A stretch of 38,533 nt of DNA from a virus (IMGVR_UViG_3300045284_000169:1-38533), one strand, 5' to 3'; positions 4,943-28,847 are shown, counted from the stretch's first letter. Numbers and translations are program-made. Notes: generated by a model from the sequence alone, not told the origin.

Positions 4943-7900
4943 TTACGCCCTCGCCATCTCGCGCTGTTGTCGACGAATCAGATTCGTCTGCGCAACTTGC
5001 TGATTGATTTGCTCCGTCTCGTCCATATCTTGCAGTCGGCCCGCGATCGGTCGCCCGCGGCCCAGAATACGTCCCGCGGTCAGCGGGTCCACGCTTTGCA
5101 GCCACGCGCCGGCCTGATACTTGGCGGTGCGGTCGATCATGCTCGACCACATCTGCGCCTTCTGGTCATCGGTCATGCGCGCATAGCTCGGTTGCTTCAT
5201 TTGCTGGCTAATCTGCGCCAGCAGTTCGCCGCGTGCCTTGACCATCGCGCGCTGCTCGGGTGAACCGTCCTTGACCGGCACCGGGACACCGTTGATCGTG
5301 ACCGAACTCGGCTTATCATCGGGTGGGCTGACCTGGTAGCCCTTCCGCTCCAGCCGCGCGAGCTCCGCCGTCAGCTCACTACTCGGCTTGGTGGCCCCGC
5401 CCAGGATCGAGACGCCGCGTCCCCTCGGCTCGCCAGTCGTCGGGTCCAACTTAGGCGGCAGGAAGTGTGCGAGCGCGACATTGCGCGCGAAAGTCGGTTC
5501 CCAGATTTGCTGCGGCCCGCGCGTAGCAATGTCACGCACGAACGGGTCGACCATATTCTCGGCGCGAGCTAGGATCGATGGACTGAAGCGTCCGACGATG
5601 TCGGATGCGGTATCGGTCACCCCGCGCGTGAGCCCACCCTGACCCAGGCTCGCGAGCGTCTTCACCAACTGGAACCCAGGAACGCCCTCGACGATCGGCT
5701 TCATGCTAGCGTTGAGCGCCGCGCCGACGCGGTCGGTCACCTCGGGGTCGGGCTGTCGCCCAGTCTTCTCCCAGCTCTCGGCGAACGCAGCCATAACGCC
5801 CATCGGCACACCGTAGACCCCGAAGGTTTTGATCGGAATCCACTGGCCGGCGACCTGCACCGAGCTCGGGTGCTCGGGATCGTCCGGACCCGTGATGTTG
5901 CCTTCGCGGATTCCCTGCGCGACCTGGGCCTGGATCATCGACTCGAGCGCCATCTCGCCAAAGGCTTTCTGGGCCGCGAACGCATCGCCCTTCTCGAGCG
6001 CCTTGGCGATCCTGGCCACGCCCGACACCTGGGTGATGCCAGGAACACGCTGGAGCGCCGTCTGCCACACGCGCGACGGCGTCCCTGAAAACGGTATTTC
6101 GAAGTCGAGCAACGTCCCAAGCGCCTTGTCGCGCAGGCTCGAGCTATTGAGCAAATGCTCCTTCGTGTTGCTGAAGCCGGCCATGAGTTTGTCGAGTTGC
6201 GACGACTGCTGGCCTGCCTGCTTGGATTGGCCAAACACGCTCGTCGACCCACTCCGCGCGCCTTCGCGGTACAGCTCGTCGGCGTGCTGCGCCAGGTACT
6301 GATCCGCTTGTGGGGTGCCTGGTTTGATGTTGGCCTCGTCGAGCATCTGGAACGCCTTGGCGGCCATGCCCTGGTACTCGCCCAGCGTGCGCGTGAACAT
6401 ATCGGCCGCACCCATCACGCGGAAGACCGCGCCACTGCGACCGGTCCAGCCCGCCCCCTGGCCAAGTGTTGGCACCTGCAAGCCCTGTAGCGCGAGCTTC
6501 GAGTTCTGGAGCGCCTCGGGGATCGCGCGACCGAGCGCGGCCAGTCCCGCGGCAGCTTCGGGGCCACGGCCAGCCATCGCGAGCGCCGCCGGCTGACGCA
6601 CCAGTTCGATGGTGTTGCTGACCATGTCCATGATCCGCCCGACGGGGTCGAGCAGGATGCCTTGCTTGGTCATATCCATGACCGTGCCGACGTTGCGGCC
6701 AACCACGCGCCCTGACGGAGCCGGCGGCCCAGCGGTCACGCCACCGCGACGCAAGCTCTCGAGAATGGTCTGGTCGATCTGTGGTCGGGTGATCGCCGCC
6801 TTGGCCAGACCTGGTGCCGCGAGTCCCAGACCCACGCCACCGAGTGTGCGGCCAGCGCGCTCAAGCGGCCCGGCGTCTTCGGGCGTGCTCTGGTAGCCGG
6901 CATAGCCGCCAATGGCCGCACTACCGAGCCGGATAGCGTGCTCCGGGTCGATCTGGCCACCCTGGCGACCGCTGATGGCGTTACGGAGCGTGTTGAGCTT
7001 TGAACCAAAGATCACGGTCCCCTCGTCGCCGCCCCGAATGCCGTCATAGCCCGCTCGCTCGATGAGACGATTGGCTTCAGTAACACTCAACGCGTCGCGA
7101 CCGGTGGTCAGAAACCGCCAGAGGGCATCCGGCGAGGCAAGGTCCGTAGCTTCGCCCCCCGCGTCCGCAACGGTCTGTTTGACGTATTGCAGCGTGGCCG
7201 CCCGCTCAGGATCACGAGTCCGAAGCACCTGGCTCAGACGCTCGATCTCACCAGGGGTCACATCATCAGCCGTTTGCAGGTCGAACAACTTCGCGTTCGA
7301 CGGCATGTCAATGGCGCGGACATTTGCGCCGACGTATGACGGCTCGTCATAGTGCCCACGCTGGTCGCGAGCGTACATACTCGCGTAGTCAGGATTCGGG
7401 GTGACGTAGTACCCCGGTCCTAACGTGTTTTCGCCTTCGACCGCGGGTAAGTCTGTGCGAACCCTGTCGAAATCGGAGGTTGTGCCGTGGTACACGCGCG
7501 TGGTCGGCACTTCGGGTTCCACACTCGGACGGCGCGGCATGCCGGCGGCGAACCCGGCCTCGGCCTGCGCCGGCTGACGCGCACGCAGTGCAGCCTGCGC
7601 GGTCGGTGTGCCCAACCCAGCGCGCACACCGCGAAGGGCCGCCGGCCCGGCAATCGGCAGCGCCAGTGCACCGACCAACGGCGCGATCGGCGAATCGGGG
7701 AACAGTTCGCTCCCCGCCACGCCACCCACGCCAGACAGGCCCAGGAACATCGCGCCCTCAGCCAATGCCTTCATCGTCAACTGCTCGGGTCCGGTGACCA
7801 ACAGGCTCATCACGTTGAGCGGCGTGAGTGCGCTGAGCACCCCGGTCGCGAGTCGCTCCTGGCGCTCGTCCGGTTCCCAGCCCATGTCTTTGGCCTTCTG

Positions 7901-9895
7901 GACAATCAGCGTGGCACTGTCGGCGCCGACCTTTTCGTCCGCGCGGCCCATGAGCAGCGCGGCGCGTACGTCCGGCGCGAGCCCGCCTGTGCCGATGTCG
8001 GTGGTCTGCTCGAGTTGCTGCTGGCGCTCCTCGGGCGAGCGCTGAGCTTCGAACTGGGACCGATAGTCGGGCGGCGTCTGGGTCATCAGCGAGCCGAAGT
8101 CCGACAACCCCTGCCCGATGCGTTCAGCCGGACCACCCGGTGCCGTAAAACCCTCGAGCGGTGGGCGATTGAGCGGCTCGGCGTTCGCCTGGAACTGACG
8201 CATACGGTCCTGCAGTGACTGGGTGAACTCCTGGCCCTGCTGTAGCCGGTCCTGAACGTCGCCCTGCACGCGCGAGCGCTGCTCGTCGAACCAGCGCTGG
8301 TTGTCGGCCTGCCTTTGAGATTGCGCGTTGTCGAACTGCGACCACGCGTCGCGCGCGCCCTGCGCGCCCTGCTGCACGAGCTGCTGGCCCTGGCCAATCA
8401 GGTCCGCGGCGCGTGTACTCACCTGTCGGCCGGCCTCGAGCGCACCTTCCACCGCGGTCCCGGCAGCGCGCACCACATCCTGTCCCTGGCCGAACAGGTT
8501 GCGGTAGTTGTCGCCGGCGCGCTCGGGGCTCTCCGACACCTGGCCCGTGCGCTGGGCATACGTCGCCAAGTCTGGCCCGCTCAGGTTGCGCTGCAAGCCC
8601 GACACGATCGCCGCACCCAGATAGCCAGGGTTGCTCGGCACACCAATCGCCCAACGAATGGCCTCGAGCGGGTGCTGCTCAACGTACGTCTTGGCTTGCT
8701 CGAGCGACATCTGGAAGGCTCGCGCGAAATTGCCAAGCTGGCCGCCTTCGAAAAACTGGAGCGGGCCCGCGCTTCGGCCCGAATCGCCACGCGCGCCGGC
8801 CAGGCCGCCCTCGGTGACCAGGATCGACTGGAGCGCTTTCTGACCGTCGTTGCCCAGCCACGATGCGGCGTCCGCGGCGCCACTCAGGATCTGCTGGCCC
8901 TGGTCGCCGAGTTGGCCCGCGCGCGCACCGCCGCCGCTCATGCCGGCCGTGGACTGGCCCATCGGATTGAAGCGTGACGGTGGCAAGCCGGCCGCAGTCT
9001 GGCCGCCGCCGTTGGGATCGAGTGTTGAACGGAGCAGACTCGTTGCGTCGAAGTCCCCGCCGGTGCCGCCATACTTGTCCGCGCCGAGCCTGATATCGGG
9101 TCCGATGCCGATATGCAGGTGCGTCCCGCGACCCTTGGCGTCGCCGGTATCACCCACCGGGCCCAGGTAGGTGCCGGCGCCGACCTGCTCGCCGACCTTG
9201 ACCGACGGTGCGCTGTCGAGGTGGGCGTAGTAGTACTGCAGCCCGTCGTTGCCGCGGATCAGCACGGCATTGCCCCCGACACTGTTCTCGCCGGACTCGA
9301 GCACCTGGCCGCCTTGCATCGCCACGACCGGCGTGCCGCGCGGCGCGAACAGGTCCGAACCACCATGCACGTCGCCCCAGTGCAAGTCGACCTGGCCCTG
9401 ATAGCCCTGCACGGGGAACACCCGACCAGCGCTGCGGTCAACGGGCGTCGCGTCTGTAGCGTTCGGGGCTGGCGTTGCAGGCGACTGAGCCAGCTCACTC
9501 GGCGCCGGCGCGGCGAACGGTGCTGGCGCTTGGTTCTGCTGCGCAACCCAGTCCTGGAACTTGCTCGCGCGGTCCTGCGCTTCGGGTGTCGAAGGCTGCG
9601 TGAGCGGCCCCACAGCGGGCGGAGGTGCCGAGACGACCTGCGGCTCAACCGCCGGTGCTGTGGGCTGTTGTGGCGCCGCGGGTGCAGTCGGTGAAACTGC
9701 CTGCTGGCCCACCCAGTCCTGGAATTGCTGAGCGCGTGCCGCGACATCCGACGCGTGCTGCTGTGCCGCGGCCTGCGCTGCCTGCGCGGCTTGTTGCGCG
9801 GCCTGCTCAGCGTTGCGTTTCTGCTCGCCGATCCAGTCGTCGAAAACCTGTTTGCGCGCGCCGATGGCGTCGTCGGCCAGCAGGAAACCGGGCAC
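4943..9895 (-). CDS. Large polyvalent internal virion protein (M23, lysozyme-like, ART)
   Basis: A 1650-residue multidomain protein. Residues 1-150: Gln/Ala-rich helices with FDDWIGEQ, FQDWVGQQ and FQDWVAQQ repeats. Residues about 158-266: M23 zinc peptidase with H177/D181 (HGGSD), H225 (YAHLD) and H259/H261 (THLHIG), a complete site that would cut peptide cross-links in peptidoglycan. Residues about 350-470: lysozyme/transglycosylase-like domain with candidate Glu362 (VTEGG) and GPLQFF. Residues about 797-975: ADP-ribosyltransferase fold of the ART-PolyVal type, with VYHGT, LGPGYYVTPNPDYASMYA and YDGIRGGDEGTVIFG (H803, Y829/Y830, E958 as H-Y-E candidates). Hydrophobic stretches near 715-760 and 985-1030. 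The last 600 residues are helical, with GAADMFTRTLGEYQGMAAKA, as in large polyvalent proteins. Start is GTG right after the upstream stop. Polyvalent proteins are known to be packaged and injected; wall breach plus host-protein modification is the inferred job. Confidence 0.85.
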   Translation of the reverse strand: MPGFLLADDAIGARKQVFDDWIGEQKRNAEQAAQQAAQAAQAAAQQHASDVAARAQQFQDWVGQQAVSPTAPAAPQQPTAPAVEPQVVSAPPPAVGPLTQPSTPEAQDRASKFQDWVAQQNQAPAPFAAPAPSELAQSPATPAPNATDATPVDRSAGRVFPVQGYQGQVDLHWGDVHGGSDLFAPRGTPVVAMQGGQVLESGENSVGGNAVLIRGNDGLQYYYAHLDSAPSVKVGEQVGAGTYLGPVGDTGDAKGRGTHLHIGIGPDIRLGADKYGGTGGDFDATSLLRSTLDPNGGGQTAAGLPPSRFNPMGQSTAGMSGGGARAGQLGDQGQQILSGAADAASWLGNDGQKALQSILVTEGGLAGARGDSGRSAGPLQFFEGGQLGNFARAFQMSLEQAKTYVEQHPLEAIRWAIGVPSNPGYLGAAIVSGLQRNLSGPDLATYAQRTGQVSESPERAGDNYRNLFGQGQDVVRAAGTAVEGALEAGRQVSTRAADLIGQGQQLVQQGAQGARDAWSQFDNAQSQRQADNQRWFDEQRSRVQGDVQDRLQQGQEFTQSLQDRMRQFQANAEPLNRPPLEGFTAPGGPAERIGQGLSDFGSLMTQTPPDYRSQFEAQRSPEERQQQLEQTTDIGTGGLAPDVRAALLMGRADEKVGADSATLIVQKAKDMGWEPDERQERLATGVLSALTPLNVMSLLVTGPEQLTMKALAEGAMFLGLSGVGGVAGSELFPDSPIAPLVGALALPIAGPAALRGVRAGLGTPTAQAALRARQPAQAEAGFAAGMPRRPSVEPEVPTTRVYHGTTSDFDRVRTDLPAVEGENTLGPGYYVTPNPDYASMYARDQRGHYDEPSYVGANVRAIDMPSNAKLFDLQTADDVTPGEIERLSQVLRTRDPERAATLQYVKQTVADAGGEATDLASPDALWRFLTTGRDALSVTEANRLIERAGYDGIRGGDEGTVIFGSKLNTLRNAISGRQGGQIDPEHAIRLGSAAIGGYAGYQSTPEDAGPLERAGRTLGGVGLGLAAPGLAKAAITRPQIDQTILESLRRGGVTAGPPAPSGRVVGRNVGTVMDMTKQGILLDPVGRIMDMVSNTIELVRQPAALAMAGRGPEAAAGLAALGRAIPEALQNSKLALQGLQVPTLGQGAGWTGRSGAVFRVMGAADMFTRTLGEYQGMAAKAFQMLDEANIKPGTPQADQYLAQHADELYREGARSGSTSVFGQSKQAGQQSSQLDKLMAGFSNTKEHLLNSSSLRDKALGTLLDFEIPFSGTPSRVWQTALQRVPGITQVSGVARIAKALEKGDAFAAQKAFGEMALESMIQAQVAQGIREGNITGPDDPEHPSSVQVAGQWIPIKTFGVYGVPMGVMAAFAESWEKTGRQPDPEVTDRVGAALNASMKPIVEGVPGFQLVKTLASLGQGGLTRGVTDTASDIVGRFSPSILARAENMVDPFVRDIATRGPQQIWEPTFARNVALAHFLPPKLDPTTGEPRGRGVSILGGATKPSSELTAELARLERKGYQVSPPDDKPSSVTINGVPVPVKDGSPEQRAMVKARGELLAQISQQMKQPSYARMTDDQKAQMWSSMIDRTAKYQAGAWLQSVDPLTAGRILGRGRPIAGRLQDMDETEQINQQVAQTNLIRRQQREMARA

Positions 9896-13311: not shown

Positions 13312-13465
13312 CGGCCGACTTGTTCTGCGGAGTCACCAGCAGAAAGTCGGAAAGAATGAACCCGACTTGTGCAAGCGCTCGTTCGACGTTCCTGGTCCGA
13401 ATCTCAAGAGATTCGACGCGTGCAGCCAGTTCGGCGATGACCAGTCGCGGATCACGGTCAATCAT
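13304..13465 (-). CDS. Small coiled-coil protein between terminase and prim-pol
   Basis: A 53-residue protein (MIDRDPRLVIAELAARVESL...) with a heptad-like helix at residues 8-35, suggesting a dimeric coiled coil. The ATG overlaps the TGA of the large terminase (ATGA) and the stop region overlaps the prim-pol start by 8 bp, so both junctions support translation-coupled expression. Function unknown. It may be an accessory subunit of terminase or of the prim-pol. Confidence 0.75.
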   Translation of the reverse strand: MIDRDPRLVIAELAARVESLEIRTRNVERALAQVGFILSDFLLVTPQNKSADE

Positions 13466-14697
13466 CGGCCGAACGCGTACCGCGAGCGGCTCACCTCGGG
13501 CGACGACTTCGCCCCAGCGTACGCCAGTGCCAATGCCGACACCGTGTCGTCGTGCGCACCCTGCGGCGCCGCGTACCTGAGCAATCCTGACGGCAACACC
13601 GTCGACTCGTACGCCAGCAGCTCACCCGTCTGCACGGGGTCATCGAGCAACGTGAGCGCACCGTCCTCGATCGCCACGCTCAGGTCGATGACTGCCGCCG
13701 CTTTCGTTGCATTCGTCGTCGTGAACGACCAGATCGGCAGTGGTGGCCGCTTCGTGCCGTCCAGGAGCATGTAGCCACGCTGCAATCGCTCGATGATCGG
13801 CGTGCCCATCGCATTACTCTCGGCCACGATGGTGCGCGGCTTGTACGCCGCGGCAATGCGGTGCAAGCGTTCGGTCTGGAACTCGTACTCGATCTGCGAG
13901 AAGCGATCCATGAACACCTGCTCCTGGGTACTCGCGTCGATCACGCTGATCACCGTGAAGTCGGACGTGCGGCCCCAGTCCACGCCGAACACGTAGGTGT
14001 GATGCTGCTCTGGTGCGCGCGGCTGTAAGCGAGCCACGGCATGCACGCCGCGGAACACGCCGGCGCCGTCGAGCTGTAAGAACTGCGCCAGGTACTCCTG
14101 GCTGAAGATGCGTTCGGGCAACTCGTGCCGCGCGGCTTCGATCTCACTGGCCGAGATGTACGGCGACGCGCTCGAGGGCATCTGCCACGACTGCCAGTCA
14201 GTCTGGAACGGGTCCTGGCCGAGCTGATACAGCGAGTGGAACGTGTCGAGTCCCTTGGGTGTGGACAGGAACCACGCGTCGCCACCGAGCACGCTGAGCG
14301 TCGGCCGCAAGCTGGCTTGCCAGACCGTTTCGAGGTCACGCACCAACGCAGCCTCGTCGACCACGATGCGGTGGTATTTTCGGCCGCGCGCGGCGTCGGG
14401 GTCGTCGAGCGACCAGCACTCAAGCGAGCCGCCGTTCGACGTGGCGATACGGTGCTGCTGCTCGCTCTTGTCCGCAGTGATGGGCTCGAGCACGATGCGC
14501 AACTGACGCCAGACTTCGTCCAGGTACTTGTACGTCGGCGCCATCCACGCGCACGTCTTGCCGTTCTGCACGCCCTCGGCCACGAGTCGAATGCCAAGCG
14601 TGGTCTTGCCCATCTGCCGGCCGCACGCGGCGACGTTGAAGCGGTGCTGCTCAGAGAGCATCGTCTGCTGCGCCTGGTGCAGCGGTGGCAACTCCAA
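13462..14697 (-). CDS. terL: Terminase large subunit
   Basis: Packaging motor ATPase and nuclease. Seen in order: adenine-binding LPPLHQAQQ, Walker A ACGRQMGKTT, Walker B RIVVDEAAL, coupling STPKGLDTF, and the RNase H-like nuclease triad in FGVDWGRTSDFTV (Asp), IVAESNAMGTP (Glu) and GAHDDTVSALALAY (Asp). The start is uncertain. The frame stays open to an ATG at 14871, but that would overlap the small terminase by 220 bp. ATG 14661 gives the neat 11-bp overlap but loses the LHQAQQ motif, which belongs to the fold. I therefore place the start at TTG 14697, which keeps the motif with a 47-bp overlap. Function is certain, start is not. Confidence 0.92.
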   Translation of the reverse strand: MELPPLHQAQQTMLSEQHRFNVAACGRQMGKTTLGIRLVAEGVQNGKTCAWMAPTYKYLDEVWRQLRIVLEPITADKSEQQHRIATSNGGSLECWSLDDPDAARGRKYHRIVVDEAALVRDLETVWQASLRPTLSVLGGDAWFLSTPKGLDTFHSLYQLGQDPFQTDWQSWQMPSSASPYISASEIEAARHELPERIFSQEYLAQFLQLDGAGVFRGVHAVARLQPRAPEQHHTYVFGVDWGRTSDFTVISVIDASTQEQVFMDRFSQIEYEFQTERLHRIAAAYKPRTIVAESNAMGTPIIERLQRGYMLLDGTKRPPLPIWSFTTTNATKAAAVIDLSVAIEDGALTLLDDPVQTGELLAYESTVLPSGLLRYAAPQGAHDDTVSALALAYAGAKSSPEVSRSRYAFGR

Positions 14698-15058
14698 GCT
14701 CTGGTGGACGTTCGACGGGCCGGAGCCCGGCGAGAAGTCGAAGGGTGGTGTCGCGCTCAACGGCAACCAACTGGGCAAGCTCGGCGGCGGATTGTTTTTC
14801 AAGCCACTCAGGGCGAGCTGCTGCCTGTAGTTGAGCCTGAATCGTGGAGACATGGGCACCGATGAGGTCAAAGATCAGGTCTCCGAGCGTCTCGGGATCG
14901 CGCGCGCGGTGTTCGTGTGCAACCTGTGCAACCCAGCGCGAAACCAGGCTGTGATCGACGTTGAACTTGGCCGCGGCCTGCACGACAGTCATGCCTGCCA
15001 GAACGGCAGCTACGGCTTCGGCGCGCAGCTCGGGCGAGTGGGCGACACCACGCGTCAT
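14651..15058 (-). CDS. terS: Terminase small subunit-like HTH protein
   Basis: A 135-residue protein with an N-terminal helix-turn-helix of the small-terminase/transposase type (ELRAEAVAAVLAGMTVVQAA, KFNVDHSLVSRWVAQ, residues about 10-45), a helical middle (TLGDLIFDLIGAHVSTIQAQ) and a flexible Pro/Ala tail. Small terminases recognise the pac or cos site and recruit the large subunit; the position directly upstream of terL fits. Its ATG overlaps the TGA of the preceding zinc-ribbon gene. The last 47-220 bp overlap terL, depending on the terL start. Confidence 0.75.
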   Translation of the reverse strand: MTRGVAHSPELRAEAVAAVLAGMTVVQAAAKFNVDHSLVSRWVAQVAHEHRARDPETLGDLIFDLIGAHVSTIQAQLQAAARPEWLEKQSAAELAQLVAVERDTTLRLLAGLRPVERPPELGVATAAPGAADDAL

Positions 15059-20236: not shown

Positions 20237-20410
20237 ATGGCCCAGCCCCAGGACGAGGCGCAGCCGATTCGACAAAGCGGCGAGTCGCCACTACCACGCG
20301 TCGTCCACAAGCCTGACATGCGGCGCATGGTCGCCGCGCTGATGCTCATCCTCGAGCAGGGCCGTCAGCAGGCGCGCGAGCGCGAGAAGAACGAGAAGTC
20401 AGCCAGCTAG
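20237..20410 (+). CDS. 57-residue protein convergent with integrase
   Basis: MAQPQDEAQPIRQSGESPLP, then a predicted helix MRRMVAALMLILEQGRQQAR and a charged tail EREKNEKSAS. Start ATG 20237 is chosen because of its spacing from the 31-bp element; ATG 20225 in frame is possible. Its TAG is the complement of the integrase TAG in a single CTAG (20407-20410). Small proteins beside large serine integrases can be recombination directionality factors; that is a hypothesis here, as no family is recognised. Confidence 0.6.
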   Translation: MAQPQDEAQPIRQSGESPLPRVVHKPDMRRMVAALMLILEQGRQQAREREKNEKSAS

Positions 20411-22068
20411 GCCGCGCCGCGGCGTAGACGTAACAAATCTATCTGTGCCGCGTGGTCGTGTGACTGCGCTTCAGACTGAGATCCAGCGAACGTGTATTCC
20501 CGATATGGTTCGGCCTTCGGGTACAGGCGCACCTTGATCACCAGTTGCTGGACCACGCCCTGCAATCGAGCCTGGTCCTTGGCCGCTCGCCATTCAGCCC
20601 AGTACGTGCCAATCTCGCGCAACAGCCGCGCGCTATCGACCAGTTGTGCCTCGAGCGCCTCGCTCAGGGCGGACTGACTGTCCAGCGCGTCCATGTCATG
20701 GCGCACGAGCGCCGCGTCATCATCGATGTGCGCGAGCTGGGTCGCCGCCTCGTCACGGCTGATGGCGCGCTGGCGGATCAGGTCGAGGATGTCCTGTTTG
20801 GCGTCACGCGTGGCCCGCAAGCGTGCGTTGAGTCGCCGATACTCGGCGTCCCTGTCCACGCTGATCCCCTGTCGCTCGCGCAACTGAGCGCGTAGCGCAT
20901 CGAGCCAGATGTCGGGTTGCGCGATGAATTCGTCGACCTCACGCAGCACCAGGTCTTCGATTGGCTCGCCGCGGATGTAACCAAGTCGGCAGGGATTGGC
21001 GGGATCGGCGTCAGACCGACCTTTGGCACGCAGGCACGCGTAGTAGAGGCGCCCCGTTTTCTTCTGATAGTTGCCGACCACACTGCCACCACACAGGCCG
21101 CACTCGAGCCGCCCGCGCAACAAGTACGAGTAGAGCGCAGTGTTCATCGGATGCTCGGCGTTCTGAGCGAGTTGCTTGGTCGCCCGCTGCCACAGCAGGT
21201 CGTCAACGAGCGCAGTGACGTGCTGTTCGATGGTGCCGGCGGCGTGGTTCAACTCCCGCTGACCGCGGTACATCGGTGAGTTGATCATGCGTTGGATACG
21301 CCACGCGCCCCAGTGTTTGTTGACTGACTCACGCTCGAGCCCGGTCTTGTTCGAGCGATAGCGCGTCGTTGAGGGCACGTCCCGCGCCGTCAGCCAGCGC
21401 GCGACCTGGCGGGTGCTGTCGCCATCCGCGACGCGCTGGAAGATCTGCCGAGCGATGTCGGCTTCGGTCATGCCGAGCGCGTCAATGAACTTGTCGCTCG
21501 GCACCAGTCCACCCGTTGATCCGACCGCGAAGCCGTAGGGCACCGGGCCATTCAAGAATTTGTCGTCACGAGCGCGACGATCGCGACCGAGCGTCATGCG
21601 CTCTCGGATCGTCTCACGCTCGAGCTCGGCGATCGAACCGAGAAGTTGGAACACGAATCGCCCGATATGGGTACGCGTGTCGAATGGCTCGGTGGCGCTG
21701 ACGATGGCAACGCCGCACCTGTCGAGTTCGTCATGCGCTTCTAGCAGGACCCTGGCCGAGCGCCCCAGCCGATCCAGCCGATACATGATGACAGCATCAA
21801 CCTCATGCAGTTGGGCGAGCTCAAGCAAGCGTCTTCCGTCTGGCCGTTCGTTTAGACGCAGCGTGCCGCTGTAGCCGTCATCAACGAACAGCCCGACCAA
21901 TTGCATGGGGTTCGGTGAGTCGTCGGTAAGGTCCGCGGCATAGCGTCGCTGCAGATAGTCGATCTGGTTTTTCGCCGTCTCGCGGTCGGTTTGTTCCTCG
22001 CTACTAACGCGGACGTAGAAAGCGATCCGGGTGAGACTCGGAACTGGTGCCAACACCCGCGCCTTCAC
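20407..22068 (-). CDS. int: Large serine recombinase (integrase)
   Basis: A 553-residue site-specific recombinase expected to integrate the phage through attP x attB. Resolvase domain (about 13-165): AFYVRVSSEEQ with catalytic Ser22, VDDGYSGTLRLNERPDGRRL, and IMYRLDRLGRS with the conserved arginines. Recombinase domain (about 175-300): PVPYGF, TRQVARWLTARDVPSTTRY, WGAWRIQRMINSPMYRG. Zinc ribbon: C323, C326, C345, C360 (ECGLCGGS, YYACL). Then a coiled coil (about 395-490) and a C-terminal RLQGVVQQLVIKVRLYPKA. All catalytic and zinc residues are present, so it should be active. It follows the ribbon-helix-helix gene by 22 nt in one leftward unit. Confidence 0.95.
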   Translation of the reverse strand: MKARVLAPVPSLTRIAFYVRVSSEEQTDRETAKNQIDYLQRRYAADLTDDSPNPMQLVGLFVDDGYSGTLRLNERPDGRRLLELAQLHEVDAVIMYRLDRLGRSARVLLEAHDELDRCGVAIVSATEPFDTRTHIGRFVFQLLGSIAELERETIRERMTLGRDRRARDDKFLNGPVPYGFAVGSTGGLVPSDKFIDALGMTEADIARQIFQRVADGDSTRQVARWLTARDVPSTTRYRSNKTGLERESVNKHWGAWRIQRMINSPMYRGQRELNHAAGTIEQHVTALVDDLLWQRATKQLAQNAEHPMNTALYSYLLRGRLECGLCGGSVVGNYQKKTGRLYYACLRAKGRSDADPANPCRLGYIRGEPIEDLVLREVDEFIAQPDIWLDALRAQLRERQGISVDRDAEYRRLNARLRATRDAKQDILDLIRQRAISRDEAATQLAHIDDDAALVRHDMDALDSQSALSEALEAQLVDSARLLREIGTYWAEWRAAKDQARLQGVVQQLVIKVRLYPKAEPYREYTFAGSQSEAQSHDHAAQIDLLRLRRGAA

Positions 22069-23446: not shown

Positions 23447-23474
23447 TTCGAACGATAACCCATGCCGCGGCTGA
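23442..23474 (+). CDS. Possible 10-codon leader peptide
   Basis: ATG at the end of the conserved leader opens a frame MHSNDNPCRG and stops at 23474, overlapping the TcmP-like start (23462) in another frame. AAGGAGG lies 10 nt upstream. In copy 1 of the leader, the corresponding ATG is the start of the real gene, so this one may be translated too and couple or attenuate expression of the next gene. Confidence 0.4.
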   Translation: MHSNDNPCRG

Positions 23475-24310
23475 GCAATGGCATGGGCGTCGGTGCCCAA
23501 TCAGCCGAGAAGTTCCACGACTTCGAAGGTATCGTCGACATCGTCGCGAAACGCGCTATGGGAGCGCTCGAACGGTGTCCGACCTGGCGACGGCCGTATG
23601 TCTGGGCCGACCTCACCAGTGGCAGCGGCTATGACGATTTGCCAGAAGGCTCGACCGTCAAAGGCACGCCCCTGACCGCGATGGACCGACTCCACGAGCG
23701 ATACGCGAAAAAGGGCATTCCATCTGCTGCTGTGTTCTTTGAACGCGAGCCCGATCGTGCTGTCGAACTCAGAGCTGCGCTCCTGCACGAGTATGGGCCG
23801 TCAAGCAAAGATGTGTCGTACAAGGTCCACGCGCGTGATTCGCACGAGTTCCTGGAGGCGTTCTGCGATCCGAAAGCGATACCCGGTGAGATGGGCGCCT
23901 TCGTCTACGACCCGACCGAAGCGGTCGATCTGGACTTCATGGCAGACATCGCGAACGCCCCACACCTCAAACGCTACGACTTGCTGGTCTACGTGTCTGC
24001 CACCTCGATCAAGCGACCACGAAGCCTGCCGGCACACTATCAAACCGACCGACGCACACTCGTCGAACGGCTTACCGCTATCAACAAGCGCAAGATCATC
24101 GTTCGCAAGCCGTCCGGCCCGTCTGAGTGGTCGTGGTTCATTATGACCAACGACCGGCACTTCCCGGTCTGGCACAAAGCGGCAGGCCGATCCAACAACC
24201 TCGATTTCTTCGACATCGTCACGCCAGAAGGGCGCGCCGTGCTTGAGCATCTGAACTGGACTCGAGCGGAACGCCTGCACCAGACGTACGGGGGAGGCTT
24301 GTTCAAGTGA
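23462..24310 (+). CDS. tcmP: TcmP-like protein (three-Cys-motif partner)
   Basis: A 282-residue protein with a Rossmann/methyltransferase-like start: RPYVWADLTSGSGYDDLPEG (about 44-63), AVFFEREPDRAVELRAALL (90-108), GAFVYDPTEAVDLDFMADIA, KRYDLLVYVSATSIKR, then SGPSEWSWFIMTNDRHFPVW and a C-terminal DIVTPEGRAVLEHLNWT. TcmP proteins are defined by co-occurrence with a three-cysteine radical-SAM-like partner, and that partner follows here with a GTGA overlap. Biochemistry of the pair is not established to my knowledge. It has its own leader element and is likely expressed apart from the genes upstream. Confidence 0.75.
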   Translation: MPRLSNGMGVGAQSAEKFHDFEGIVDIVAKRAMGALERCPTWRRPYVWADLTSGSGYDDLPEGSTVKGTPLTAMDRLHERYAKKGIPSAAVFFEREPDRAVELRAALLHEYGPSSKDVSYKVHARDSHEFLEAFCDPKAIPGEMGAFVYDPTEAVDLDFMADIANAPHLKRYDLLVYVSATSIKRPRSLPAHYQTDRRTLVERLTAINKRKIIVRKPSGPSEWSWFIMTNDRHFPVWHKAAGRSNNLDFFDIVTPEGRAVLEHLNWTRAERLHQTYGGGLFK

Positions 24311-25638
24311 CACAGACCGAATTGCGTTTACCAGAAGGGCCCGCTGATGTCGCGCGTGAGCAGCTCGAGCGCATCAAGCGATCATGGGTCGAGTTCGCTC
24401 TGGACCTGAAAAACTTTCACGATCACGAACGCTGGCGGGATCTCGGCTATAGCGGTTTCAAAGACTGCGTTGAGGTCGAGCTTGGTTGGCGGAAAACCAA
24501 TGTGTATCAGGTGCTGACTGCGGCTGAAACGATCATCGCATTGCAACAGTCCGCCATGGCGGAACCGTTGCCAGTAAACGAACGGCAACTTCGCGAGCTC
24601 GCGCCGCTTAAGAACGATCCTGACCAACTAGCGGCAACCTGGCGACAGGCCGTCGAGACAGCGCCGCGCGACCGAAACGGCGAGCCGCAGGTCACCGCCA
24701 AGCACATCGCCGACGTGATCGCCGCCGATGCCGTGGTCATCACCGAGGACACCACGCCGGCCGACCCCGTCGACCTGCTGATGACGTTGCCGATGTGGCG
24801 TAGCCTCGACGCAGAGCAGCAGCAGCGTGTACTGACTCGGCCACGGACGAAGGCCACGTTCAACGAGCAGCAGACCACGAACATCGAATGGGCGCGCTGG
24901 TCGTGGAACCCTGTCACCGGCTGTCGCCACAATTGCAGCTTCTGCTACGCCCGCGACATCGCCGCACGCTTCTACCCCCAGGGCTTCGTGCCGACCTTCC
25001 TGCCGGAACGCCTCGACGCGCCGCGGAGCACGCGCGTGCCAGCGATCGCAGCGAGCGACATCGGCTACAAGAATGTCTTCACCTGCTCGATGGCTGATCT
25101 GTTCGGCAAATGGGTGCCCCGTGAGTGGATCGAGGCCGTGCTCGACAGCGTGGCCGCCAACCCACAATGGAACTTCCTGTTCTTGACGAAGTTCCCGCAA
25201 CGTCTCGCCGAGTTCGAGTTTCCTGCCAATGCCTGGCCAGGAACCACGGTCGACGCTCAGGCGCGCGTCAAGAATGCCGAGGCCGCGTTCGCCAAGGTCC
25301 GCGCGCCGGTCAAATGGCTGAGCCTCGAACCACTACTCGAGCCGTTGCGCTTCGAGCACCTCGACCTCTTCAACTGGCTCGTGATCGGCGGCGCATCGGC
25401 TTCGACCGAGACGCCTGAGTGGCATCCACCACTGTCCTGGGTGGCCGACATCGAGCACCAGGCCGCTGCGGCCGGCGCGCGTGTGTACCACAAGACCAAC
25501 CTCTACCAGCGGCGGCGCGAATATCCAGGCGTGCCACTCCAGCCGGTGCTCGACATACCCGAAGCATTCCACATGCAGTATCTGCAGCGCGACGTACTCG
25601 AGCCGCGGGCCTATGCGGCTGAGATGAAATCGATCTAA
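24307..25638 (+). CDS. Radical-SAM-like Gp37/Gp68 (DUF5131) three-Cys protein
   Basis: A 443-residue protein. Residues 1-180 are a helical DNA-binding-like extension (ERWRDLGYSGFKDCVEVELG, WRKTNVYQVLTAAETI, VNERQLRELAPLKND), recalling ParB-type or plasmid-partition helices. Residues about 190-440 are the Gp37/Gp68 core: IEWARWSWNPVTGCRHNCSF, with C206, C210, C213 in CX3CX2C, the 4Fe-4S motif of radical SAM enzymes, then FTCSMADLFGKWVPREWIEA, WNFLFLTKFPQRL, WLSLEPLLEPL and WLVIGGASAS. GTG start overlaps the tcmP stop. Its stop TAA is the end of the first 20-bp boundary dyad. A radical-SAM chemistry on nucleic acid is likely; the substrate is unknown. Confidence 0.85.
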   Translation: MTQTELRLPEGPADVAREQLERIKRSWVEFALDLKNFHDHERWRDLGYSGFKDCVEVELGWRKTNVYQVLTAAETIIALQQSAMAEPLPVNERQLRELAPLKNDPDQLAATWRQAVETAPRDRNGEPQVTAKHIADVIAADAVVITEDTTPADPVDLLMTLPMWRSLDAEQQQRVLTRPRTKATFNEQQTTNIEWARWSWNPVTGCRHNCSFCYARDIAARFYPQGFVPTFLPERLDAPRSTRVPAIAASDIGYKNVFTCSMADLFGKWVPREWIEAVLDSVAANPQWNFLFLTKFPQRLAEFEFPANAWPGTTVDAQARVKNAEAAFAKVRAPVKWLSLEPLLEPLRFEHLDLFNWLVIGGASASTETPEWHPPLSWVADIEHQAAAAGARVYHKTNLYQRRREYPGVPLQPVLDIPEAFHMQYLQRDVLEPRAYAAEMKSI

Positions 25639-26000: not shown

Positions 26001-26013
26001 TTGTTGATATGAC
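25994..26013. repeat. Boundary dyad 2 (degenerate)
   Basis: AAGCTAA-TTGTTG-ATATGAC. The left arm keeps CTAA at the stop codon; the right arm is poorly conserved. Included because TTTGTCA-CTAA-TG around it matches the end of the module (28834-28850) at 14 of 17 positions. Confidence 0.4.
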
Positions 26014-26404
26014 TGACAAGTGGCTGATCGCCGGTAGCCGCGCCAAGTGGTGGCCCGACCCTAACGCGGTGGCTGAATTCGTGGATGACATGCTCGACGG
26101 TTGCGACGCTGGCCTCGTGCTGATCAATGGCTGCGCCGATGGCGTCGATGCCTGGGCCAAGGAAGCCGCTGAGCGACGCGGCATCACGGTCGATCCGCAC
26201 CCCGCCGAATGGCGGAGACCAGACGGCAGCTTCGACAAGAGCGCGGGGTATCGGCGCAACGCCGAAATGGTCGCCCTGGCGGATCACGTCTACGTGGTTT
26301 GGGATGGGCAGTCGCCGGGCACCAAGCACACCATCGACCTCGCGTTGAAAGCCAGGAAGCACCTCGAAGTGCTGTTTCCCCTTGGCAGACCTAAAGATGG
26401 TTAG
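26009..26404 (+). CDS. SLOG-family (DUF2493-like) nucleotide-binding protein
   Basis: A 131-residue Rossmann-like protein: KWLIAGSRAKWWPD (strand and glycine loop), LVLINGCADGVDAWAKEAAE (GCADGVD motif), GITVDPHPAEWRRPDG, GYRRNAEMVALADHVYVVWD and SPGTKHTIDLALKA. This is the YspA/DUF2493 branch of SLOG proteins, which bind nucleotides or nucleotide-derived ligands and often accompany conflict or modification systems. ATG 26009 is 8 nt after the upstream stop. Next to a deazaguanine transporter and transglycosylase, it could sense or handle a nucleobase-derived ligand (inference). Confidence 0.75.
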   Translation: MTDKWLIAGSRAKWWPDPNAVAEFVDDMLDGCDAGLVLINGCADGVDAWAKEAAERRGITVDPHPAEWRRPDGSFDKSAGYRRNAEMVALADHVYVVWDGQSPGTKHTIDLALKARKHLEVLFPLGRPKDG

Positions 26405-26407
26405 ATC
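26388..26407. repeat. Boundary dyad 3
   Basis: GACCTAA-AGATGG-TTAGATC, one mismatch to the perfect dyad. It covers the ATG of the transporter gene and the TAG of the SLOG gene. TTAGATCAAGC (26401-26411) is identical to 25645-25655. Confidence 0.65.
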
Positions 26408-26939
26408 AAGCTCGTTGCGGTACTGGCCACTGGTCGCCTACATCGCCACGATCTTCCTCGCGAACTGGGCTATCACCACCTTCGGCCTGGTCCCTGTTGG
26501 GTTTGGCCTGCTCGCACCAGCCGGCGTCTACTTCGCTGGCTTGGCATTCACCTTCCGCGACCTCACCCAGGACGCGCTCGGTCGACGCTGGACGTACTTC
26601 GCCATCGTCGTCGGCGCCGCACTGTCGGGCCTGATCAGCGGCCCGCTGGCGCTCGCATCAGGCACGGCGTTCCTGGTCAGCGAGACAGCCGACCTGCTCG
26701 TTTACACACCTTTGCGAGAACGTCGCTGGCTGACGGCGGTAACCGCTTCCAACGTCGCCGGCCTCATAGTAGATTCAGCTCTATTCCTATGGCTTGCCTT
26801 CGGCTCACTCGAATTCCTGTACGGCCAGATCGTCGGGAAGATGTGGGTCACCGGGCTCGCCGTCATTGTCTTGTGGGGCTGGCGTGCTCTATCTGAGCGG
26901 CGTCATGACGCAGACGCTGCTCGCCAACCCGCGGCCTGA
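26397..26939 (+). CDS. VUT/YhhQ-type queuosine precursor transporter
   Basis: A 180-residue integral membrane protein with about five hydrophobic helices. Family marks: WAITTFGLVPVGFGLLAPAG, VYFAGLAFTFRDLTQDALGR (the FRD..QD..G signature), ALASGTAFLVSETADLLVYT, NVAGLIVDSALFLWLAFGS, WVTGLAVIVLWGW. VUT/YhhQ proteins import queuine-pathway precursors (preQ0/preQ1). Phages that modify DNA with 7-deazaguanines sometimes carry them. It overlaps the next gene, a DpdA-like transglycosylase, by 35 bp, so supply and use of the base are coupled. ATG 26397 is chosen; ATG 26382 would lie inside the SLOG gene. Confidence 0.85.
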   Translation: MVRSSSLRYWPLVAYIATIFLANWAITTFGLVPVGFGLLAPAGVYFAGLAFTFRDLTQDALGRRWTYFAIVVGAALSGLISGPLALASGTAFLVSETADLLVYTPLRERRWLTAVTASNVAGLIVDSALFLWLAFGSLEFLYGQIVGKMWVTGLAVIVLWGWRALSERRHDADAARQPAA

Positions 26940-27513
26940 ACTCGGCCTGATGTACCAGCCCGGTATGGGCAATGACACGCGCGCGTTTCAGTTCTGGCGA
27001 TTCGCCTGCGACAACGGTCGGTTCGCCAAACCCGACGAGTGGAACGCCGGCGATTGGCTCGAGTGGCTCGCGAGCCTACGTCGCTACCGCCAGAATTGCC
27101 TCTTTGCCGTAGCGCCCGACGTGGTCGGCGATGCGCTCGCGACACTCAACCTGTCGCGGCCCTATCTTGAGACAATCCGCCAGTTGGGCTACCGCGCGGC
27201 CTACGTCGCCCAGGACGGGTTTCACGATGCCTTCCCCGACCCCGACACCTTCGACGTGTTGTTCATCGGTGGCCGCGACGAATGGAAGTTTGCAGAGGAT
27301 GGTGGCTACGCAGCTGCACGCTGGGCGCGAGCACACGGCAAGCCAACCCACCAGGGCAGAGTCAACAGCGAGCGGCGAACCGTCACGATGATGGTGTCGA
27401 TGTTCGATTCGGTCGACGGCACGTACTTGAAGCACGGGCCGGATGTGAACTGGTCGAAGTTGAACCGCTGGCTCGACCGGGTGCGCGACCAATCGTTCAT
27501 GCAGGCCGCTTGA
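26905..27513 (+). CDS. dpdA: DpdA-like DNA 7-deazaguanine transglycosylase
   Basis: A 202-residue TGT-superfamily protein of the short phage DpdA type. Motifs: FACDNGRFAKPDEW (33-46), CLFAVAPDVVGDALATL (65-81, candidate catalytic Asp), IRQLGYRAAYVAQDG (91-105), FDVLFIGGRDEWKF (116-129), ARAHGKPTHQGRVNSERR (141-158) and FDSVDGTYLKHGPDVN. DpdA swaps guanine in DNA for a 7-deazaguanine such as preQ0, which blocks many restriction enzymes. No preQ0 synthesis genes (folE, queD, queE, queC) are present, so precursor must come from host or medium through the adjacent transporter. The ATG at 26905 overlaps the transporter end; MYQPGMGND further in is an alternative start. Confidence 0.8.
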   Translation: MTQTLLANPRPELGLMYQPGMGNDTRAFQFWRFACDNGRFAKPDEWNAGDWLEWLASLRRYRQNCLFAVAPDVVGDALATLNLSRPYLETIRQLGYRAAYVAQDGFHDAFPDPDTFDVLFIGGRDEWKFAEDGGYAAARWARAHGKPTHQGRVNSERRTVTMMVSMFDSVDGTYLKHGPDVNWSKLNRWLDRVRDQSFMQAA

Positions 27514-27515
27514 TA

Positions 27516-27535
27516 GATCTAAGTGCCGTTCTATC
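27516..27535. repeat. Boundary dyad 4
   Basis: GATCTAA-GTGCCG-TTCTATC, right arm two mismatches off. It lies at the start of the 95-nt gap between dpdA and the methyltransferase; TTCTATCTGACAAG just after it is the reverse complement of the TTGTCAGAT found at the module end. The rest of the gap shows no gene. Confidence 0.55.
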
Positions 27536-27608
27536 TGACAAGATTTCCATCCCAAACTGCCCGGCTTGACGGCTCGACATCACGCAAGCCACCTGTTTAA
27601 ATTTGTAA

Positions 27609-28331
27609 GTGCGTGGTATGGCTCTTTGTGCCGGGGCTGGCGGACTCGAACTCGCGCTCCGCATCGCCCTCGGCGATGACTACCACTGTGTGGTGTACGT
27701 CGAGCGGGAAGCCTACGCCGCGGCCGCCCTCGTGGCGCGGATGGCAGACGAGGCCCTGGATGCAGCTCCTGTCTGGGACGACCTCACCACCTTCGACGGT
27801 AAGCCGTGGTGTGGCCTCGTGGATATCGTCTCTGCCGGCTTCTCCTGCCAGCCCTGGTCGCAAGCAGGCAAGCAGCTCGGCATCGAAGACGAGCGCTGGA
27901 TCTGGCCAGACATTGCGCGTGTCGTTCGCGACGTTGACCCCGAATGGGTGTTCCTGGAAAACGTCGCTGGGCTTGTTCGAGGAGGACTGGAGCACGTACT
28001 GCGGGATCTGGCCGCGTCGGGGTTCGATGCGGAGTGGGACAGTCTTTCGGCGGCCGAAGTCGGTGCGCCGCACCTTCGCGAACGCCTCTTCATCCTGGCC
28101 CACCGCGCGCGCCAACGATCCGGAGAAGCGTGGGGACTTCAATCCAAACCATCGCAGCGGCTTGACGGTCGCGGCACGCTTGTGGCCGACGGCGAATGCG
28201 GAACTAGGGACGGGGTACATGAGCGGATCGAATCGGGATACGTGGCGCCCGACTCTAGAAGGCGCAGCGATGGGATACGAGCCCATTCTCCATCAGGGTC
28301 GGCCGAAACACTGGCCGACGCCACGCGCTGA
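27609..28331 (+). CDS. C5-cytosine DNA methyltransferase, catalytic part
   Basis: A 240-codon frame (GTG 27609, or ATG 27618) with methyltransferase motifs in order: MALCAGAGGLELALRIALGD (I), FSCQPWSQAGKQ (IV, with the catalytic Cys), VFLENVAGLV (VI, ENV) and APHLRERLFILAH (VIII). It stops at TGA 28329-28331 after the typical LADATR of the variable region, before target recognition and motif X. The same frame reopens at 28341. Without the distal part the enzyme would be inactive. It would methylate cytosine in phage DNA, complementing the deazaguanine system. Confidence 0.7.
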   Translation: MRGMALCAGAGGLELALRIALGDDYHCVVYVEREAYAAAALVARMADEALDAAPVWDDLTTFDGKPWCGLVDIVSAGFSCQPWSQAGKQLGIEDERWIWPDIARVVRDVDPEWVFLENVAGLVRGGLEHVLRDLAASGFDAEWDSLSAAEVGAPHLRERLFILAHRARQRSGEAWGLQSKPSQRLDGRGTLVADGECGTRDGVHERIESGYVAPDSRRRSDGIRAHSPSGSAETLADATR

Positions 28332-28824
28332 GGACGCCGAGTGGGCAGGCAATCACCCCAACGCAACGGACAGCTTGGTCGGGACGACCAGGCTGTGGCC
28401 GACGGCGACCGCCAAGGATGCGGCGAGCAGCGGTACACGCAAGGATGCTTCCAATTTCACTTTGACGGACAGAGCAGTACGCCAGCCGCTCTGGACGACG
28501 CCGACGCAGGACGACGCTGGGGGCAGGACGACGAGATACGCCCAGGGCGGTCCCGCCCTGGGCGTACAGACTGGCCACTGGGCGAGCCCAGTGGCCAGGG
28601 ACTATCGCTCAGCACACGAGAACGACAGGAACGGGTCGCTGCCGATACAGGCTACTGGCCACCCGACCGAAGCTATGAAGGCGAATGGCCGAGTGAGCTT
28701 GAACCCGCTGTTCGTCGAGTGGCTGATGGGATGGCCCCGTGGGTGGACCGACTCAGGCTCACCGGTAACGGGGTGGTCCCGCTGGCTGCGGCAGTCGCGT
28801 TCCTACGCCTTCGCGATCGCCTGA
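27613..28824 (+). other. Overlapping +1 frame, 403 codons, methyltransferase C-terminus
   Basis: This frame is open across the whole gene. Upstream of about 28100 it is a shadow of the catalytic frame, but downstream it reads as the WPTP-type C-terminus of phage C5 methyltransferases: SWPTARANDPEKRGDF, RLWPTANAELGTG, HWPTPRAEDAEW, WASPVARDYRSAHENDRNGS, and LNPLFVEWLMGWPRGWTDSG. A +1 shift near 28095-28105 would join catalytic and C-terminal parts into one protein. Codons for LADA and WPTP are the same DNA one base apart, so both frames keep family-like sequence. Confidence 0.45.
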
Positions 28825-28847
28825 TCGACGACGTTTGTCAGATCTAA
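28341..28847 (+). pseudogene. Distal frame-0 part of the methyltransferase
   Basis: Continues the catalytic frame after the TGA. Its end, RRVADGMAPWVDRLRLTGNG followed by VVPLAAAVAFLRLRDR, carries motif X (GNxVVP), which is part of the SAM pocket in C5 enzymes. With 27609-28331 it would make one full-length enzyme but for the single TGA. The stop TAA (28845-28847) is in boundary dyad 5. It is either a relic, a sequencing error at one base, or a stop suppressed in some transcripts. Confidence 0.45.

Follow-up and report, generated by a model that had tools for sequence, protein, structure and literature searches.

What DpdA does in phages that lack the genes for precursor synthesis has been an open question since 2019. 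The window analysed here, a linear IMG/VR record of 38,533 bases from an uncultured phage (IMGVR_UViG_3300045284_000169), carries on its plus strand an overlapping gene pair that may provide a concrete and testable answer. The first gene encodes a Vut_1/COG1738-type membrane protein, a predicted 7-deazaguanine importer of the queuosine-precursor type (26397..26939), and the second a short transglycosylase resembling DpdA and tRNA-guanine transglycosylase (TGT) (26884..27513). We hold with moderate confidence that the pair serves guanine modification as a precursor-salvage cassette. Strong purifying selection acts on both genes, the ratio of nonsynonymous to synonymous substitution rates (dN/dS) being 0.11 for the transporter (window against one close relative, L017) and 0.07-0.08 for the enzyme (window against relatives at 85-89 % protein identity), and this range of 0.07-0.11 excludes chance.

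DpdA-only phages, the idea of uptake and the occurrence of YhhQ in phages are already in the literature. Hutinet et al. (PMC6884629) reported on 76 phages in which DpdA is present but synthesis genes are lacking, proposed that the host supplies the base or that it is taken up, and noted phage YhhQ homologues that showed no correlation with any group. Traces of dADG were reported for phage 7-11 (PMC6884629), and MED16, which has dpdA only, yet carries dADG, is a precedent for salvage (PMC8306585). YhhQ (COG1738) is required for preQ0/preQ1 salvage in E. coli (PMC5372724), and EC151 has been proposed to raise preQ0 by means of a phage preQ0 transporter (PMC8310023). What appears to be new, as far as the tools used here show, is the tight coupling of phage Vut proteins with several transglycosylase families, together with the case for counting phrog_15826 among these.

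The transporter gene and its overlap with the enzyme gene

The open reading frame 26397-26939 passed the gathering cut-off of Pfam Vut_1 (PF02592), at 37.4 bits for a required 27.2, which bears out the VUT/YhhQ-type transporter proposed in a first-pass annotation of the window. The domain is shared with the preQ0-preQ1 transporter YhhQ/COG1738, but the window protein scored below the cut-offs of both curated models, TIGR00697 for the queuosine precursor transporter (29.3 bits against an equivalog cut-off of 50.95) and NF008406 for the YhhQ equivalog (24.8 bits against 252), and is therefore placed in a divergent phage branch, phrog_4899. The putative preQ0 transporter of CAjan belongs to the same PHROG. 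The structural model has six long helices at a predicted local distance difference test score (pLDDT) of 94.8; in a fold search the best result was a weak match to an energy-coupling factor (ECF) S-component (E 0.12), and no PDB sequence matched the Vut profile. Family membership suggests a 7-deazaguanine as the transported substrate.

The two genes had been reported to overlap by 35 bp, and this figure is correct if the enzyme starts at the ATG at 26905. A start at the GTG at 26884 is however more probable, as the N-terminus LYLSG or YLSG common to three close relatives (L018, L020 and L021) maps to this codon and two others (L017 and L019) align from the same point onward with the same spacing. 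The overlap is therefore likely to be 56 bp (26884..26939, plus strand).

Relation of the short enzyme to guanine transglycosylases

The enzyme, 202-209 residues long, falls in phrog_15826 (4e-48), a PHROG of unknown function. No match was found for it in Pfam, NCBIfam or the PDB at the sequence level, a search of the window with PF01702 (TGT) had no match and pairwise BLAST against the CAjan DpdA found nothing, so that a link with TGT or DpdA needs evidence from profiles, fold and neighbourhood. Its relatives in named phages, which are 39-48 % identical, come from Arthrobacter phages Aoka and Sonali, Rhodococcus phage ReqiPine5 and Fishburnevirus mycobacteriophages, and relatives are often annotated as 'DpdA-like tRNA-guanine transglycosylase'.

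Comparison of the family profile with phage DpdAs, including the proven enzymes of CAjan and 9g, gave a probability of 82 % and an E-value of 1e-5, with the motifs DNG/DSG, PDVVGD/LDVIGD, QDG/HxGE and GG aligned in order. A relative of the phrog_887 type (from RHph_N3_2), itself scoring weakly against phrog_15826, aligned with the window family over 140 columns at 26 % identity, through the final DGT/DST motif. In approximately 95 lineages (<80 % identity) the residues D36, P71-D72, Q103, F120, G123, H149, N154, D171 and G172, counted from the ATG at 26905, are invariant, and their conservation was seen again in a second alignment. We take D36, D72, Q103, G123 and D171 to be the equivalents of TGT D102, D156, Q203, G230 and D280. 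Set against the DpdA families, a catalytic-type Asp pair and the Asp, Gln and Gly expected for base recognition stand in the right order.

The fold model (pLDDT 92.2) shows a TGT-like β/α barrel, and the top 23 hits in Foldseek consist entirely of TGT and DpdA entries, with TGT leading and the bacterial DpdA 7ui4 at rank 18. Taken together, the profile alignments, conserved residues and fold model indicate that the phrog_15826 protein probably belongs with the guanine transglycosylases. The earlier call of a DpdA-like transglycosylase is thus supported by profile, fold, motif and neighbourhood evidence, although no DpdA or TGT model matches the protein.

The DpdA of CAjan and 9g (phrog_887), presumably DpdA1, shares the order of active-site motifs and the TGT-type fold with the window enzyme, and the CAjan genome also has a Vut gene; it is however ~300 residues long against ~205 in the window family, and genes for preQ0 synthesis are present in both phages. 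The DpdA of MED16 (phrog_887-like and short) is, like the window enzyme, found in a phage without synthesis genes; its short relatives in RHph_N3_2 and Pam5 sit beside Vut, whereas no Vut was seen reported for MED16 itself. For Rosebush, the record of Coffee (Rosebushvirus rosebush) was used instead.

Pairing of the transporter with transglycosylases in other phages

Among the enzyme's 80 best phage relatives, Vut adjoins the transglycosylase gene on the same strand in 44, nearly always directly upstream (27 of 46 after dereplication at <70 % identity). Approached from the transporter side, for which broad Vut alignments were too variable for scanning, a TGT/DpdA-like gene was located within 1.2 kb of Vut in 73 of 80 phage Vut loci and in 33 of 39 dereplicated ones, figures that are biased because the scan was seeded mainly with Vut proteins whose pairing had been seen before. 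Four families are represented among the partners, namely phrog_15826, the phrog_887 type to which the CAjan DpdA belongs, Pfam DpdA (PF23859) and one singleton, and the last three were mostly not selected for by the seeds.

The partner can differ even where the transporters are closely related. Two Vut proteins (L175 and L176) are 77-80 % identical to that of the window, yet their partners belong to the PF23859 group (267.6 bits for the L175 protein), which is the DpdA type of mycobacteriophages Orwigg, Gyarad and Oscar; this type pairs with window-like Vut proteins in IMG/VR phages, but its model does not match the window enzyme. The singleton (L183 1279-2139; IIDSGAFQELD ... STDSSAPE) is a transglycosylase-like protein encoded directly upstream of a Vut gene. 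Named records with Vut adjoining or near a transglycosylase are RHph_N3_2, Pam5 and Streptococcus phage MS1. In the last of these the Vut_1 gene precedes the transglycosylase gene as in the window, with an overlap of 4 bp, while the enzyme, at 311 residues, represents the longer type of DpdA.

A gene for a PAPS-reductase-like protein (N-type ATP pyrophosphatase) was also observed near the short transglycosylase in one of the close relatives (L018 3535-4467) and in ReqiPine5 (L008 6652-7569), and a link of this neighbour with base modification is possible.

Precursor synthesis genes

The reported absence of folE, queD and queC was confirmed, as the models for FolE (PF01227), PTPS/QueD (PF01242) and QueC (PF06508) had no match in the window record; the record is possibly incomplete and the absence is therefore valid for the record only. 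As for QueE, the only radical-SAM protein noticed is a DUF5131 protein, which does not match the QueE model, the whole window not having been searched with that model. With respect to FolE, QueD and QueC, the record resembles the Group-3 type (DpdA without preQ0 genes; Hutinet 2019). QueC is also absent in 35 of the 38 virus records with a phrog_15826 enzyme, the exceptions being Sonali, phiG7 and G029, and of another 49 records, which carry Vut, the phrog_887 type or both, it is below the cut-off in 46 and over it in three.

Proposed function and alternative explanations

In the explanation that we favour, the Vut protein would be made in the host membrane and would import a base that the phage is unable to make itself, be it preQ0, preQ1 or another 7-deazaguanine related to them. 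The gene that overlaps it would provide a minimal TIM-barrel transglycosylase that, in the manner of DpdA and most probably in phage DNA, puts the imported base in the place of guanine, and the modified DNA may then be shielded from restriction. The import half of this proposal rests on family membership, and the base-exchange half on the fold, the motifs and the swapping of partners with DpdA. Gene anatomy, fold, residues, selection and reciprocal association all speak for the salvage idea put forward in the first-pass annotation; the base used, the DNA target and the protective role are parts of it that we infer. If the proposal is true, phage DNA modification may depend on a scavenged base and how well such phages resist restriction would change with the surrounding chemistry. 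Isolated phages with the pair, such as GreaseLightnin, Aoka and ReqiPine5, make a base-feeding test feasible. More tentatively, and at a little under even chance, the pair may represent a modular salvage cassette widespread in phages, in which a phrog_4899 transporter lineage is combined with interchangeable transglycosylases of at least four families. Such a cassette would constitute a general route to DNA hypermodification, driven by uptake and dependent on the deazaguanine that is freely available in the environment, and phrog_15826 would be a DpdA subfamily of ~200 residues.

Several observations weigh against salvage for guanine modification, in addition to the seeding bias mentioned above. 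The first-pass annotation had proposed a profile hidden Markov model search as a check, naming the lack of a DpdA-family hit as the outcome that would speak against it; while Vut_1 was recovered, hmmscan gave nothing on Pfam DpdA even at E 1, which is literally that outcome, and the link is rescued by the profile comparison and the fold search. The barrel by itself is unspecific, as pyruvate kinase (VIA Z 14.4) ties with TGT (14.3) and so do other TIM barrels, and the argument is therefore carried by the motif order. No member of phrog_15826 is known with a measured activity. In three close relatives (L018, L020 and L021) the enzyme is present but Vut is missing, which makes the importer dispensable. 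In Sonali (L010 5938-6555 and 8925-9815) the short transglycosylase stands alongside a canonical DpdA and a complete preQ0 pathway, and the same holds for Escherichia phage phiG7 (L014 ~8000), where the short gene is apparently split in two frames; the short enzyme may therefore do something different. Lastly, the DNA of Orion, a DpdA-only phage, is unmodified (PMC6884629).

An alternative that we regard as unlikely is salvage of a queuosine precursor by the pair for use in tRNA, with the enzyme as a minimal tRNA transglycosylase that acts on host or phage tRNA and either aids translation or supplies the lysogen. That TGT is the top fold match is in keeping with this, as is the established role of YhhQ-family salvage in tRNA queuosine (PMC5372724), and the phage encodes a serine integrase and may thus reside in the cell as a prophage. 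TGT was found in all six Chloroflexota genomes examined and full-length QueC was not seen in four of them (the genomes may be incomplete), which would fit a salvage lifestyle if the host were a member of this phylum. Against this, the enzyme has no room for the C-terminal region of TGT and only two Cys, far apart, so that the CxCxxC...H zinc site of bacterial TGT cannot form. Moreover, its profile link runs to the phage DpdA families, Vut pairs in other phages with Pfam DpdA ('DeoxyPurine in DNA'), and mycobacteriophages keep the pair even though Mycobacteria lack the queuosine (Q) pathway (PMC6884629).

Similarly improbable is a base exchanger of TGT fold that serves some other purpose, in that it might act at another motif, use another base, or remove or proofread deazaguanine, with Vut carrying another purine. 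The coexistence of the short enzyme with canonical DpdA and complete synthesis in Sonali and phiG7 would be explained in this way, the enzyme has a PHROG of its own and no Pfam match, and COG1738 is not homogeneous and may include carriers of other purines (PMC5372724). Nevertheless, with QueC absent in all but three of the 38 records, the short enzyme is in most genomes the sole candidate inserter seen; the same residues are retained throughout the family, and closely related Vut proteins pair elsewhere with a DpdA of the Pfam type. Least probable of all is a relic, inherited but inactive or conditionally silent as Orion might suggest, because in spite of the missing Vut in close relatives and the broken methyltransferase frame next to the pair, the low dN/dS of both genes and the invariant active-site-type residues point to current function.

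The methyltransferase region

Downstream of the pair, a homologue of C5-cytosine methyltransferases (27609..28847, plus strand) is present as annotated, but not as one intact frame. The frame 27609-28331 scores 107 bits against Pfam DNA_methylase and ends at an in-frame TGA (28329-28331), and the C-terminal PHROG match of the methyltransferase is confined to 28341-28847, past this codon. The gene downstream of the enzyme differs among close relatives, in which the methyltransferase is not kept beside the pair, and the methyltransferase probably does not belong to the cassette. The earlier suggestion that a cytosine modification is stacked onto the guanine modification was therefore rejected as unsupported, the methyltransferase being interrupted and outside the conserved unit.

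Two long open frames are found in the region 27609-28847, frame 3, which has the TGA at 28329, and frame 1, which spans 27613-28824. Frame 1 reads LWPTATAKDA...LNPLFVEWLMGWPRGWT and resembles parts of other phage C5-methylases. The same +1 frame relation occurs in one other locus (L196), and frameshift, dual coding and decay are candidate readings of the two frames.

Genomic context and possible host

The pair lies within a plus-strand accessory block (~22.5 to 28.8 kb). Immediately before it, a gene for a YspA/DprA-like SLOG nucleotide-binding protein (26010..26404, plus strand; open frame from 25904, ATG at 26010; Pfam YAcAr PF10686, 32.2 bits, over the cut-off) belongs to the same gene run and overlaps the Vut gene by 8 bp. 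The phage genes found in the window are all on the minus strand and encode a major head protein (52-906), a tail-type protein (4943-9895) that is very long and includes an endopeptidase domain, a terminase (13462-14871) and the serine integrase (20407-22068).

Relatives of the terminase large subunit (TerL) were detected in 8 of 301 Chloroflexota genomes (E 1e-10; best identity 49 %) and in 1 of 396 Actinomycetota genomes at the stricter E 1e-20, which weakly suggests a host among the Chloroflexota.

PADLOC had no defence match for the Vut/transglycosylase pair. Elsewhere in the block, the gene at 23462-24310, which we take to be three-Cys-motif-partner-like, overlaps the DUF5131 radical-SAM gene (24307-25638) by 4 bp, and the two match the PADLOC candidate defence models PDC-M30A (1.6e-4) and PDC-M30B (7e-36).

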